Below are positions 53,449 through 56,841 of a stretch of DNA of 64,000 nt, piece after piece (within the stretch, counting starts at the first letter, position 1; each line of letters opens with the position of its first letter). This stretch comes from Leptonema illini DSM 21528. GTDB lineage: Bacteria > Spirochaetota > Leptospiria > Leptospirales > Leptonemataceae. The stretch covers positions 1,853,550-1,917,549 of the forward strand of contig NZ_JH597773.1 of NCBI RefSeq assembly GCF_000243335.1, given 5' to 3'. The notes under the pieces were generated by a model. That model ran no database searches. It was not told the DNA's origin and was given only the letters and a program-made list of their open reading frames with translations. A program made the position numbers and the translations under genes.

Positions 53449-53841
53449 ATGCCCTTCGAGTCAGATGCCATGCTGCAATTCTACCATTATACGTTTCAGA
53501 CGTTTCATATCGCGTTAATCCTATTCAATGTACTCGGCTGGATTCCACGACCGACCGCTCGCCTGAACCTGATCACACTCGTCGCTACAGGCCTCTCCTG
53601 GACGGTGCTCGGCGCCTTTTATGGGTTAGGATACTGTCCGCTCACGGACTGGCATTACGGCGTTCTTGAACGGCTCGGTCGCTACAACCTGCCCGTTTCG
53701 TACATCGCTTTTCTCATCGAAGAGATCTGGTCCATCCGCATTGCGACGGCGACGGCGGACTGGATTACGGGTACGACCTACGCCCTTGCCCTGCTGGCCT
53801 CCGTCCTGCGAAACATAAAGATCAGACAGACGTTACCGTAG
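53449..53841 (+). CDS. DUF2784 family membrane protein
   Basis: The 130-residue protein has four hydrophobic helices with the DUF2784 hallmarks FHIALILFNVLGWIPR, GLGYCPLTDWHY and a conserved LERLGR. It is predicted to be an inner-membrane protein of unknown function. It is divergent from the hydrolase (77 bp), and its end overlaps the PurA-like gene by 9 bp. Confidence 0.75.
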   Translation: MPFESDAMLQFYHYTFQTFHIALILFNVLGWIPRPTARLNLITLVATGLSWTVLGAFYGLGYCPLTDWHYGVLERLGRYNLPVSYIAFLIEEIWSIRIATATADWITGTTYALALLASVLRNIKIRQTLP

Positions 53842-55110
53842 AATCATCGAGCTCCGCTCTATAAAGCGACCCGGCGCGTCCGATGCAAACACAACGGGAT
53901 TGCGATCAAGCATCCGCTCTTCATACAACGCGATCACATCGCCGGGGGGCGAGATCTCAACGGACTCATATACCGGACGGCATCGCCTCAGAGCATCAGC
54001 CTTCGGCTCGGGCAGATCGGCTATGGATTCTACGAGGGCCCCGGACTGCTCTTTATAGGCGACGCAGATTCGATCCGGGCGGTAATCGGTATGCGTGAGA
54101 ACGATGCCGTCGGGCCGCATGCAATCAAGCGCATAACGCAGAAGCAGACGATCGGCATGGCCTACGCGAAAGTTTCCCTGAAACCCGGGCTCAAGGTTGT
54201 TATCCCGTTCAAAACACAGCGCAGGATCTTCGGTCGGGAACGGCCCATGACCGTGCCGCGTGGGAAGCGTGCGTATCACGCCCAGCGTTCTGCGCTCGCC
54301 TGTAAAGCCGGCCGCATCAAGCAGTCGCTCGGCGTTTCGCGGTCCTGTATGCGACGGCGTCACATGGGGAAAGAAGCCGGCCTCCATATCAAGCAGCATG
54401 CCCTGCGCCCCTTCAAATAGAAGAGTAGAGGACTCCCGGATCTTTGCAAGACCATCCACACATAGCACAAGGCGCGCAACGGCTGTATAACGCTGCACAA
54501 GAAATTCTGGCATGGCAGGCTCGCACAGATCGGTAAATAGCTCCTCTATCTGTTTTGAGAGTGGCGCCGCACCCATAACACTGCGAGCGCGCTCAATCTG
54601 ATGTTCGCGAATCTGTTGCAGACGCCGCCGAAGAAGCGAAACGTCATACAGATCTGCAAAGCGCATCGTCGGAGCGCCGCTTCGCTCGTCCTGAAAGGCC
54701 ACTCCGATACCGAGGCCACAGCTTCCATGCCGATCTTCGGCCCGACTCAGCTCTTCGATGCGATTCACATAGGCATGAAAGGCGGTGAGCGTAACGGCCT
54801 CTGCATCAACGTGAAGCAGCGAAAAAGGCGAGGCAAGGCCGGCGCCTTTCAGCCTCTCGGCTTCGTCTATCAATAGAAGAGGATCGACAAACGTGAATGA
54901 CGAAAGCAGCGTCGGTACGCCTTCAAAGCTGCCGCTTCCAAACTGCGAGAAGCGAAATCGGACTCCGTTATGCTTAACGTGATGGGCGGCCTGTGCTCCG
55001 CCGTTAAAGCGGACGACCAGGTCGGGCCGGACCCGGCGCGAGAGATAGGCGATCGTCTCGCCCTTCCCTTCGTCGCCGAATCCCAGCCCGCAGACGATGG
55101 TGGCTCTCAT
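53833..55110 (-). CDS. Divergent adenylosuccinate synthetase (PurA) paralogue
   Basis: The 425-residue protein aligns along its whole length with PurA. The P-loop is GFGDEGKG with the catalytic Asp13. The catalytic His is His43 in GGAQAAHHV. LFEGAQGMLLDMEAG and GPFPTED are conserved. The specificity sites differ: TKLD, the guanine-recognition motif, reads THTD; the Arg-rich aspartate-binding loop TTGRRRR is reduced to one Arg (GNFRVGHAD); and the IMP-contact loop TGRGIGP is CGLGIGV. It therefore probably ligates a different substrate or uses another nucleotide. Its ATG overlaps the stop of the VWA gene (TGATG). It is not a phage PurZ, since the catalytic Asp is kept. Confidence 0.85.
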   Translation of the reverse strand: MRATIVCGLGFGDEGKGETIAYLSRRVRPDLVVRFNGGAQAAHHVKHNGVRFRFSQFGSGSFEGVPTLLSSFTFVDPLLLIDEAERLKGAGLASPFSLLHVDAEAVTLTAFHAYVNRIEELSRAEDRHGSCGLGIGVAFQDERSGAPTMRFADLYDVSLLRRRLQQIREHQIERARSVMGAAPLSKQIEELFTDLCEPAMPEFLVQRYTAVARLVLCVDGLAKIRESSTLLFEGAQGMLLDMEAGFFPHVTPSHTGPRNAERLLDAAGFTGERRTLGVIRTLPTRHGHGPFPTEDPALCFERDNNLEPGFQGNFRVGHADRLLLRYALDCMRPDGIVLTHTDYRPDRICVAYKEQSGALVESIADLPEPKADALRRCRPVYESVEISPPGDVIALYEERMLDRNPVVFASDAPGRFIERSSMILR

Positions 55111-56594
55111 CAGAGACGTTTCGAGCTTCCTCCGCGTTTTTTGTCGGCCTCAGATTTCGGAATGCTATCGCTGCTTACTCGCGCGGCGCTTCTAACACCC
55201 GGCATAGCCGACAATCCGGCGAGGGCCTTTCGCGTGCCGGCAAGCCGGGCCGCCGTCTGCTCCGTTCCCTGTAGATCGCCCATGAAGCTTTCCAGATCGT
55301 TCGCTCCACCAACAAGGCTGAGCGCGCCGAGCATGACGTCGAGGATGGAATGAGGATCATCGATGCGCAGAATATGCTCTTCCGGGATAACCGAAGCCCA
55401 CTGGGCCAGGATAACGTCGTCGCGATAGTTGGCGTATTGATCGGCGGGCGTTTCATCGACCGGGGCACGATTACGCATCGACGGATCAAACTGAAACTCA
55501 TAAATCAGCTGATTGGAATCAGGCCCCGCTTCGCCCTTTCCGCCGATGATGCCGTTGAAGCGTTTGATAACGCCGCCCACTTCGACCTCGGCGCGATAAG
55601 GAGTAGGTCCGGGGCTTTCATGAAAGCGATAGTTCTGCACGAAGACCGTGTACTTTCCCGAAGGCGCCTCGCCCTCGGACCAGCGCACGTTCTCGACGGG
55701 CTTCGTCGTCTCGCCTGACACGTTCATATCGACGTCAAGCCACCCTTTGCAGGCCGATTGTTTATGCGCATAATAGATCTCTTCACCGGATGGAGCGATC
55801 ACATGAAGATCGAGGTCGTTCCGGTTATTCCAGATCAGCGATGCGCGCACATCGACGTTGCGATACTGACCGCCGGCCGCTTCGACGCGCTGCTGAATCT
55901 CGGCGTCGATATCGGCCTTGCGATCCTCGAAGCCTTTCTGCGGATAAATAAAAAACACATGATACTTCTGCTGTAGCTCGGCGAAGATCTCTTTAGAATC
56001 GATGTCATCGGCCACATCGTCGCCGATATAAGCGGCAATCTGATGCTTCGATACTTTCGGATAAAACCCTTCATCACCGACGAAAAACAGAAAGCCTTTG
56101 CGCCCTTCATTCAGGCATTCGAGCTTTGTCTTTCTGGCATAATAGTATGCGATCAATTCATAGGATTCCTGTCCCGTTCCTCCACCGCCTTCTTCAAGCC
56201 ACAGGCTGGAAAGAGCTTCGTCAAGACGGTTGTCGGCTTCAAACTGACTGATCTGCACGGGCGCTCTGTCGCCGGCCGTCGCATCCCCGATGCCGGCAAA
56301 GCTCATGGCCGCCCCTTCGACGTATCCCTTCATCTCGATCATTCCGATAAACATGGGAAGCTTCTGGTAGACGATCTTCGAGTCGTTGCCGCGCGAGCGC
56401 GTCACATCAAGGGCGACGACGATGGGAGTTCGGTTCATGCATTCGCGTATCTGCCCTTTTATATCGAGCAGCGGATGCACTCCTCGTATCTCTTCACCTG
56501 ATGCCGTATGTGCTACGCCTGCATAGGTGAAGGCATCGCGGTTCGTGGAGCGCGCCTGTCGCGCCACATCAAGACTGTAATTGCCGTATCCCAT
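55110..56594 (-). CDS. VWA domain protein with DUF2135/YfaP-like domain
   Basis: The 494-residue cytosolic protein starts at ATG 56594, behind GGAGG with 5-bp spacing. It has a VWA-like domain (about 55-240) whose metal site reads DVTRS at 63-67 (Thr in the usual DxSxS) and contains FLFFVGDEGFYPK. It is followed by a beta-sandwich like DUF2135 (about 245-350, LIWNNRNDLDLHVIAPSGEEIYYAHK). The last 120 residues are low-complexity and basic. It is translationally coupled to the PurA-like enzyme. VWA/DUF2135 proteins are found in several stress and conflict gene sets; the partner combination here is not one I know. Confidence 0.82.
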   Translation of the reverse strand: MGYGNYSLDVARQARSTNRDAFTYAGVAHTASGEEIRGVHPLLDIKGQIRECMNRTPIVVALDVTRSRGNDSKIVYQKLPMFIGMIEMKGYVEGAAMSFAGIGDATAGDRAPVQISQFEADNRLDEALSSLWLEEGGGGTGQESYELIAYYYARKTKLECLNEGRKGFLFFVGDEGFYPKVSKHQIAAYIGDDVADDIDSKEIFAELQQKYHVFFIYPQKGFEDRKADIDAEIQQRVEAAGGQYRNVDVRASLIWNNRNDLDLHVIAPSGEEIYYAHKQSACKGWLDVDMNVSGETTKPVENVRWSEGEAPSGKYTVFVQNYRFHESPGPTPYRAEVEVGGVIKRFNGIIGGKGEAGPDSNQLIYEFQFDPSMRNRAPVDETPADQYANYRDDVILAQWASVIPEEHILRIDDPHSILDVMLGALSLVGGANDLESFMGDLQGTEQTAARLAGTRKALAGLSAMPGVRSAARVSSDSIPKSEADKKRGGSSKRL

Positions 56595-56841
56595 TCTTTC
56601 CTCCCACTGATACCACCAAATAGTAAATAATGAAGCGATAGAACCGCATCTGACCGTGCAACGCAAAGCAGGTCAAGTCGGTTTCCCTGACGCATCCCGT
56701 TGAAGAGGCATCAGGAGAGGCACTATCAAAGGTCTTCTACAAAAAAACCGTCCTGCCGTTACGTTCCGGGGCCGCTGTCCGATACTGAAAAAGGACTTGT
56801 CGGCATTACGGAGGGCATTTTTATGAACCTGAGGGTCATTC

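Follow-up and report, generated by a model that had tools for sequence, protein, structure and literature searches.

Two adjoining genes of the spirochaete Leptonema illini DSM 21528 are the subject of this analysis: one encodes a protein with a von Willebrand factor A (VWA) fold, and the other an altered member of the adenylosuccinate synthetase (PurA) superfamily, referred to as PurA-like in what follows. Both lie on the minus strand of a 64,000-nucleotide stretch of contig NZ_JH597773.1 (positions 1,853,550 to 1,917,549), which is called the window here. The initial annotation, made from the sequence of this stretch, had described an overlap of the two genes by TGATG, and the coordinates of the open reading frames confirm it, the A of the motif being common to both frames; such an arrangement makes translational coupling possible. 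As that annotation had proposed to check, a canonical purA (597 bits) is present elsewhere in the same genome, and the PurA-like gene of the window is a second copy. The pairing of VWA and PurA-like is real, near-obligate and very widespread, and it belongs to a hitherto little-noticed module that is found in hundreds of contigs of large phages, in plasmids, and in scattered bacteria.

Viral sequences, plasmids and genomes of the window's phylum all bear on the tightness of the association. Among the best 80 viral VWA loci, 78 carry a PurA-like gene in the same orientation and almost always no more than about 3 kb away, and the remaining two end shortly past the VWA gene; among the best 80 viral PurA loci, 77 carry the VWA gene, and the other three have PurA near the start of the available sequence. 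When VWA loci were pooled and dereplicated (154 loci), 135 had PurA-like only, one had both PurA-like and a pyruvate-kinase-like gene, 14 had only the latter, and four had neither. In three of these four, the sequence breaks off less than about 430 bases from the VWA gene; the remaining one nearly duplicates locus L304, which has its PurA-like gene at a greater distance downstream. A survey of 392 genomes of the phylum found VWA in 11, PurA-like of the same clade in 10 (G000, G003, G005, G012, G015, G018, G027, G029, G316 and G363), and both in nine, a co-occurrence with a Fisher p of about 1e-15 when relatedness is ignored; the tenth PurA-like copy, without VWA, lies near the start of its contig. 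The viral counts and the nine co-occurrences reject chance adjacency of the two genes, and a coupling of this kind suggests a dedicated chemical reaction, not ordinary metabolism.

The distribution of the pair is broad. Within 60 relatives, the altered PurA is patchy in the same family and order, and adjoins the VWA ortholog. Plasmids with the pair come from Rhodococcus, Tsukamurella, Variovorax, Agrobacterium/Allorhizobium, Acetobacter, Rhizobium and Methylorubrum; in PLSDB, 20 out of 21 records with this VWA also have a PurA-like match of low identity, most of which were checked as adjacent, the exception being a Rhodovulum plasmid in which kinase-like and VWA genes are present and no PurA-like match was detected. 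Isolated phages that carry the pair include the Bixzunavirus phages of Mycobacterium, as well as Vibrio and Rhizobium phages. In IMG/VR, the VWA gene is present on at least 258 contigs and a PurA relative on 305, a number that may include other PurA relatives, while a PurA-family match of any kind was found in 226 of 50,697 phage records. A contig scan with the window PurA by itself returned just three weak archaeal PurA matches, and the breadth of the pairing was therefore established through plasmids, phages, IMG/VR and genome searches. The initial annotation had named two observations as fatal to its proposal, a sole purA with normal activity and a pairing confined to close relatives; both are contradicted by the canonical purA and by conservation of the pair well beyond the close relatives of L. 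illini.

The PurA-like protein matches the Pfam family Adenylsucc_synt (PF00709) with 187.7 bits, and its AlphaFold2 model (predicted local distance difference test score, pLDDT, of 93.5) is confidently of the PurA fold, with 43 PDB matches at E <0.001, every one of them a structure of adenylosuccinate synthetase or of PurZ, the 2-amino-adenylosuccinate synthetase of Z-DNA phages. Nevertheless, it falls far below both equivalog cut-offs of NCBIfam for purA (163.4 bits against 402, and 134.9 against 395.55). In a quick tree of 70 sequences, in which 15 canonical PurA and two PurZ/PurZ0 with long branches served as comparison, all 53 VWA-linked PurA-like sequences fell into one clade (support of 99 in the Shimodaira-Hasegawa-like approximate likelihood ratio test), which stands apart from canonical PurA and from PurZ/PurZ0. 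The view that PurA-like differs from the housekeeping enzyme is thus upheld by the separate clade and by the canonical gene elsewhere in the genome.

Residue conservation, counted over 90 VWA-linked PurA-like sequences and given in E. coli PurA numbering, locates the difference. Asp13, Lys16, His41 and Gln224 are invariant, Thr239 is nearly so, and Asp333 is present in 83-93%; in the window protein, the catalytic Asp13 and His43 (the equivalent of E. coli His41) are both kept, in agreement with the initial annotation. Its further claim, that the motifs for recognition of guanine, inosine monophosphate (IMP) and aspartate are altered, applies to the whole family, although the guanine-site residue Asp333 is mostly kept. 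N38, T301 and R303 are altered in at least 93% of the clade, with N38 replaced by Gln in 93-97% and T301 by Gln in 98-100%, while position 300 is aromatic in most members. V273, which is Val in 15/15 canonical PurA sequences, is His in 90/90 VWA-linked ones. The TTGRRRRTG loop has lost one residue, the last arginine alone being left; R131 is missing, with Lys in its place in a minority of sequences, most members lack R143, and K331 is mostly Cys or His. The window protein is changed at the guanine position (K331H, with D333 kept), at the IMP positions (N38Q, T129C and R143A), and at the aspartate/ribose positions (R131L, T300F, T301Q, V273H and the one-residue loop deletion); N38, T129, R131, R143, T300, T301 and R303, which serve IMP and aspartate recognition, are all altered in it. 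The changes of the substrate site are a family-wide property and no quirk of the window gene.

R303 of the E. coli enzyme is reported to contact the O2' of IMP and aspartate, and the loop with the equivalent of V273 adjoins the ribose (PMC8342488). The location of these sites near ribose and aspartate points to a remodelling of the ribose/acceptor side of the active site, with the activation chemistry, phosphoryl transfer to the 6-oxo group, probably kept. From these substitutions it may fairly be inferred that PurA-like makes a purine-type product different from that of PurA.

The partner protein was identified as a VWA protein by predicted fold and metal-site motif: no Pfam VWA family was matched, and its identity rests on structure, the core of its AlphaFold2 model resembling integrin-beta I-like and pilus-adhesin VWA domains (E 2e-5 to 1e-3). 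In the alignment of the family, D63 and T65 of the metal site are invariant and S67 is kept in 90% or more. The designation VWA/DUF2135 of the initial annotation stands in its first half and found no support in its second, given that PF09906 (DUF2135) matched neither the inserted beta-rich domain, at E<=10, nor any protein of the genome. This insert, which has no Pfam family, contains predicted strands and is poorly modelled (pLDDT <50 over residues 274-382), the core being good; it occurs in the window's close relatives and in G363, a genome of another family, and is absent from the aligned phage and plasmid VWA proteins. The insert is also 47-53% identical to parts of uncharacterised plasmid proteins of Vagococcus, Paenibacillus and Bacillus (H88-H92). 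Two copies of the VWA gene deserve separate mention: that of the Rhodovulum plasmid (L064:7833-8861), which is annotated as 'TonB-dependent receptor' and may be a fusion or a truncated copy, and that of G003 (L050:235-1552), which is broken by a frame change, with its module lying at two contig ends.

Three aspects of the module had been passed over by the initial annotation: its phage distribution, a kinase-like third component, and a sister class with a pyruvate-kinase-like barrel. Of 136 distinct PurA-type loci, 71 encode the kinase-like protein, whose gene mostly stands upstream of VWA and which accompanies the module in G018, G015, G005, G003, G363, plasmids and Bixzunavirus. In the window genome, the ortholog (373 aa, 54% identity) lies about 22 kb from the pair, and carries HGN/DWT motifs in place of the HRD and DFG of active kinases. 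Across an alignment of 110 rows without dereplication, 6 retain the HRD Asp, and DW- or GW- mostly stands in the place of DFG; the kinase-like proteins of PurA-type modules are mostly pseudokinases. At the start of some copies is a stretch with weak similarity to J-domains (Pfam DnaJ, 0.002-0.013, below the cut-off).

In the sister class, represented in the phylum by G048 and G098 and by about a dozen distinct viral contigs, VWA is accompanied by a pyruvate-kinase-barrel gene in the place of PurA, and a kinase-like gene is present in nearly all loci; the kinases that were read individually (G048 and L067) keep HRD or HGD and DFG and look active. The two classes meet in G363, where kinase-like, VWA, barrel and PurA-like genes are all together, and in G027 and G029, where the barrel gene adjoins PurA-like; the G029 module is cut at the contig start, and those of G027 and G003 are split over contigs. 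Among plasmids, the pyruvate-kinase-like gene matched ordinary pyruvate kinases solely. On several plasmids, a NUDIX protein, in some cases with a weak NrtR-type winged helix, is encoded downstream of the module or divergently from it. NrtR-type regulators have been reported to sense ADP-ribose (PMC9503650), and by analogy a role of this protein as a ligand-sensing regulator is plausible. In the window itself, the genes that flank the pair are unrelated to it (DUF2784, alpha/beta hydrolase and TPR proteins in a Pfam scan), and the GC content around the pair shows no island signature. The features described are collected in Table 1.

Table 1. Features of the VWA/PurA-like locus in the window, and of related loci (L handles)
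Feature	Position	Strand	Remarks
VWA protein gene	56594..55110	minus	494 aa; ATG start; N-terminus MGYG; near-obligate partner of this PurA-like clade
PurA-like enzyme gene	55110..53833	minus	425 aa; altered adenylosuccinate synthetase superfamily member
TGATG overlap	55108..55112	minus	VWA stop / PurA-like start
GGGAGG ribosome-binding site before VWA gene	56600..56605	minus	strong; supports start Met-Gly-Tyr-Gly
GFGDEGKG, PurA-like residues 10-17	55060..55083	minus	catalytic Asp13 and Lys16
TRHGHGP, PurA-like residues 284-290	54241..54261	minus	His286 = E. coli V273
GFQGNFRVG, PurA-like residues 309-317	54160..54186	minus	remodelled aspartate/ribose loop; E. coli ATTGRRRRTG; clade-wide aromatic-Gln-Gly
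Metal-site (MIDAS) motif D-V-T-R-S, VWA residues 63-67	56394..56408	minus	DxTxS conserved
Inserted beta-rich domain, VWA residues ~227-375	55470..55916	minus	resembles phrog_1735
Sister module (kinase, VWA, barrel)	L263:5382-8029; L268; L276-L293		KIE and RGDL-type motifs kept in barrel
NUDIX proteins near plasmid modules	L057:9280-9927; L058:9329-9961; L059:5210-5923		

Taken together, these data suggest a mobile module, composed of a kinase-like protein (usually a pseudokinase), VWA and PurA-like, of which the window pair is the copy in the chromosome. The central component would be a dedicated PurA-family ligase that most likely still employs guanosine triphosphate (GTP) to phosphorylate, and thereby activate, a 6-oxo-purine-type substrate, which it would then join to an amine, with the PurA-type recognition of free aspartate, of the ordinary ribose of IMP, or of both being lost. 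Its VWA partner would either form a complex with the enzyme or control it, and could use its Mg2+ site to bind a ligand or target; in modules that have the pseudokinase, this protein would be an accessory, possibly a sensor or adaptor that binds nucleotides without catalysis and has a J-domain-like N-terminus. Large phages and megaplasmids would spread the module, whose role would most likely lie in phage-host conflict or host takeover and not in purine housekeeping. We place the probability of this reading at roughly one half. Its observed basis comprises the co-occurrence, the separate clade, the pattern of residues, the predicted fold, the distribution and the presence of a canonical purA; the GTP-dependent activation, the changed substrate, the physical complex, and the sensor and conflict roles are inferred. 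Several points weigh against it. About half of the loci have no detectable kinase-like gene, and this protein is therefore either non-essential or too diverged to be recognised. PADLOC has no model that matches VWA or PurA-like (0 families each), the matches of the kinase-like proteins being solely to models that contain kinase domains, and no direct evidence of defence or anti-defence was found for the module. Finally, the loss of R303 does not prove a non-aspartate acceptor, because PurZ, which lacks R303 near its substrates, still uses aspartate (PMC8342488); the change in PurA-like may reflect an altered ribose instead.

Among the alternatives, the one that fares best, while still being doubtful, is that the module forms a chemical-stress or conflict system of the Ter type, in which VWA, a kinase and a nucleoside-like metabolite act together. 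Ter systems share the same types of ingredients, VWA proteins and metabolite enzymes (PMC7824862), and the NUDIX proteins of the plasmids, which carry a weak NrtR-type winged helix and whose genes share the module's operon or lie in a divergent one, would fit such a scheme. However, the link to metal-stress systems drawn by the initial annotation found no support in the genomes: TerD is absent from that of the window and was detected in one of six other module-bearing records, at about 84 kb from the module, and no Ter-type gene was recognised among the recurring viral neighbours, whose clusters were not scanned with Ter profiles. Membership of the module in the Ter systems was thus not retained.

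Less probable is a PurZ-like modification of nucleotides, with the enzyme making a modified deoxynucleotide monophosphate for phage DNA. PurZ does offer the precedent of a phage-borne PurA paralogue with a changed substrate (PMC8342488, PMC12884076), some phage neighbourhoods of the module contain ribonucleotide reductase, dUTPase or guanylate kinase genes, and positions 273 and 303 of the E. coli enzyme are close to the C2'/O2' of the ribose (PMC8342488). In addition, PHROG 1211, the PurA-like family, and many phage annotations bear the name '2-aminooxy adenylosuccinate synthetase', although Asp13 and the clade argue against PurZ function. PurZ is defined by Ser (or Gly) at position 13, and in all 147 phage PurZ sequences Asp13 is replaced by Ser (PMC12884076), whereas it is present in 90/90 sequences of the VWA-linked clade, which is separate from PurZ in the tree; the window protein reaches 48 bits against the NCBIfam PurZ cut-off of 300, and membership in PurZ was rejected on these grounds. 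Moreover, the constant partner is VWA and not a set of DNA-synthesis genes, and sporadic bacterial chromosomes and plasmids also carry the module.

A more speculative idea arises from the N-terminus of the VWA protein: 130 of 136 PurA-type loci have Met-Gly there and most of the rest Met-Ser, whereas in none of the 14 barrel-only loci does Met-Gly occur; where these could be read, they have Met-Ser, -Ala or -Pro. This terminus may be a docking motif or a substrate. The alpha-amine is the chemical group that aspartate offers to PurA, and an N-terminal glycine has the same group. Because Met-Gly tracks the PurA class and the residues for free aspartate are remodelled, PurA-like might attach the activated purine to a protein amine, the exposed N-terminal Gly of VWA being the acceptor, with no free nucleotide made. 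We regard this as very improbable, and shared descent may explain the Met-Gly association, which rests on two large clades; if true, however, phages would be carriers of a novel type of protein modification. The least tenable proposal, that of a backup or housekeeping purA isozyme lying beside VWA by happenstance, has clear PurA homology and fold in its favour and is rejected by the canonical purA, by a coupling kept across phyla and phages, by the family-wide alteration of aspartate and IMP residues, and by the separate clade.

PurA is among the most conserved enzymes of purine synthesis, and with PurZ a paralogue carried by phages was shown to give rise to new chemistry. The module described here adds a further large group of PurA-family enzymes, in which the catalytic core is intact, the substrate loop has been remodelled in a uniform manner, and a VWA partner is almost always present. 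Should the reaction prove to be new, phage-host biology would gain a metabolite or a modification; for its study, the Bixzunavirus phages, which infect Mycobacterium smegmatis, offer a tractable laboratory system.

With regard to known systems, the Bixzunavirus families PHROG 3043 (kinase), 2971 (unknown) and 1211 are the same gene families as those of the module (a related kinase matches 3043 with E 1.2e-27, the window VWA phrog_2971 with E 8.5e-45, and the window PurA-like 1211 with E 9.2e-59); they are annotated separately and without function, and no description of them as one module, nor of the VWA-PurA pair, was found in the literature searched, an earlier mention in the 2012 Ter paper being possible. 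PurA-like resembles PurA (PF00709) in its fold, in the P-loop-like GDEGKG, and in Asp13, Lys16, His41, Gln224 and mostly Asp333, and departs from it in N38Q, V273H, T301Q, the aromatic residue 300, the shortened arginine loop, the loss of R131 and mostly of R143, and the constant VWA partner. It shares with PurZ/PurZ0 the condition of a phage-borne PurA paralogue with an altered substrate site, but has Asp and His where PurZ has Ser13 and Val273, and differs from it in clade and partners. With the Ter systems (TerD, TerC and the TerF-type VWA), the module has in common a VWA protein beside enzymes predicted to act on nucleotide-like metabolites; it differs from them in that PurA-like is a constant member.

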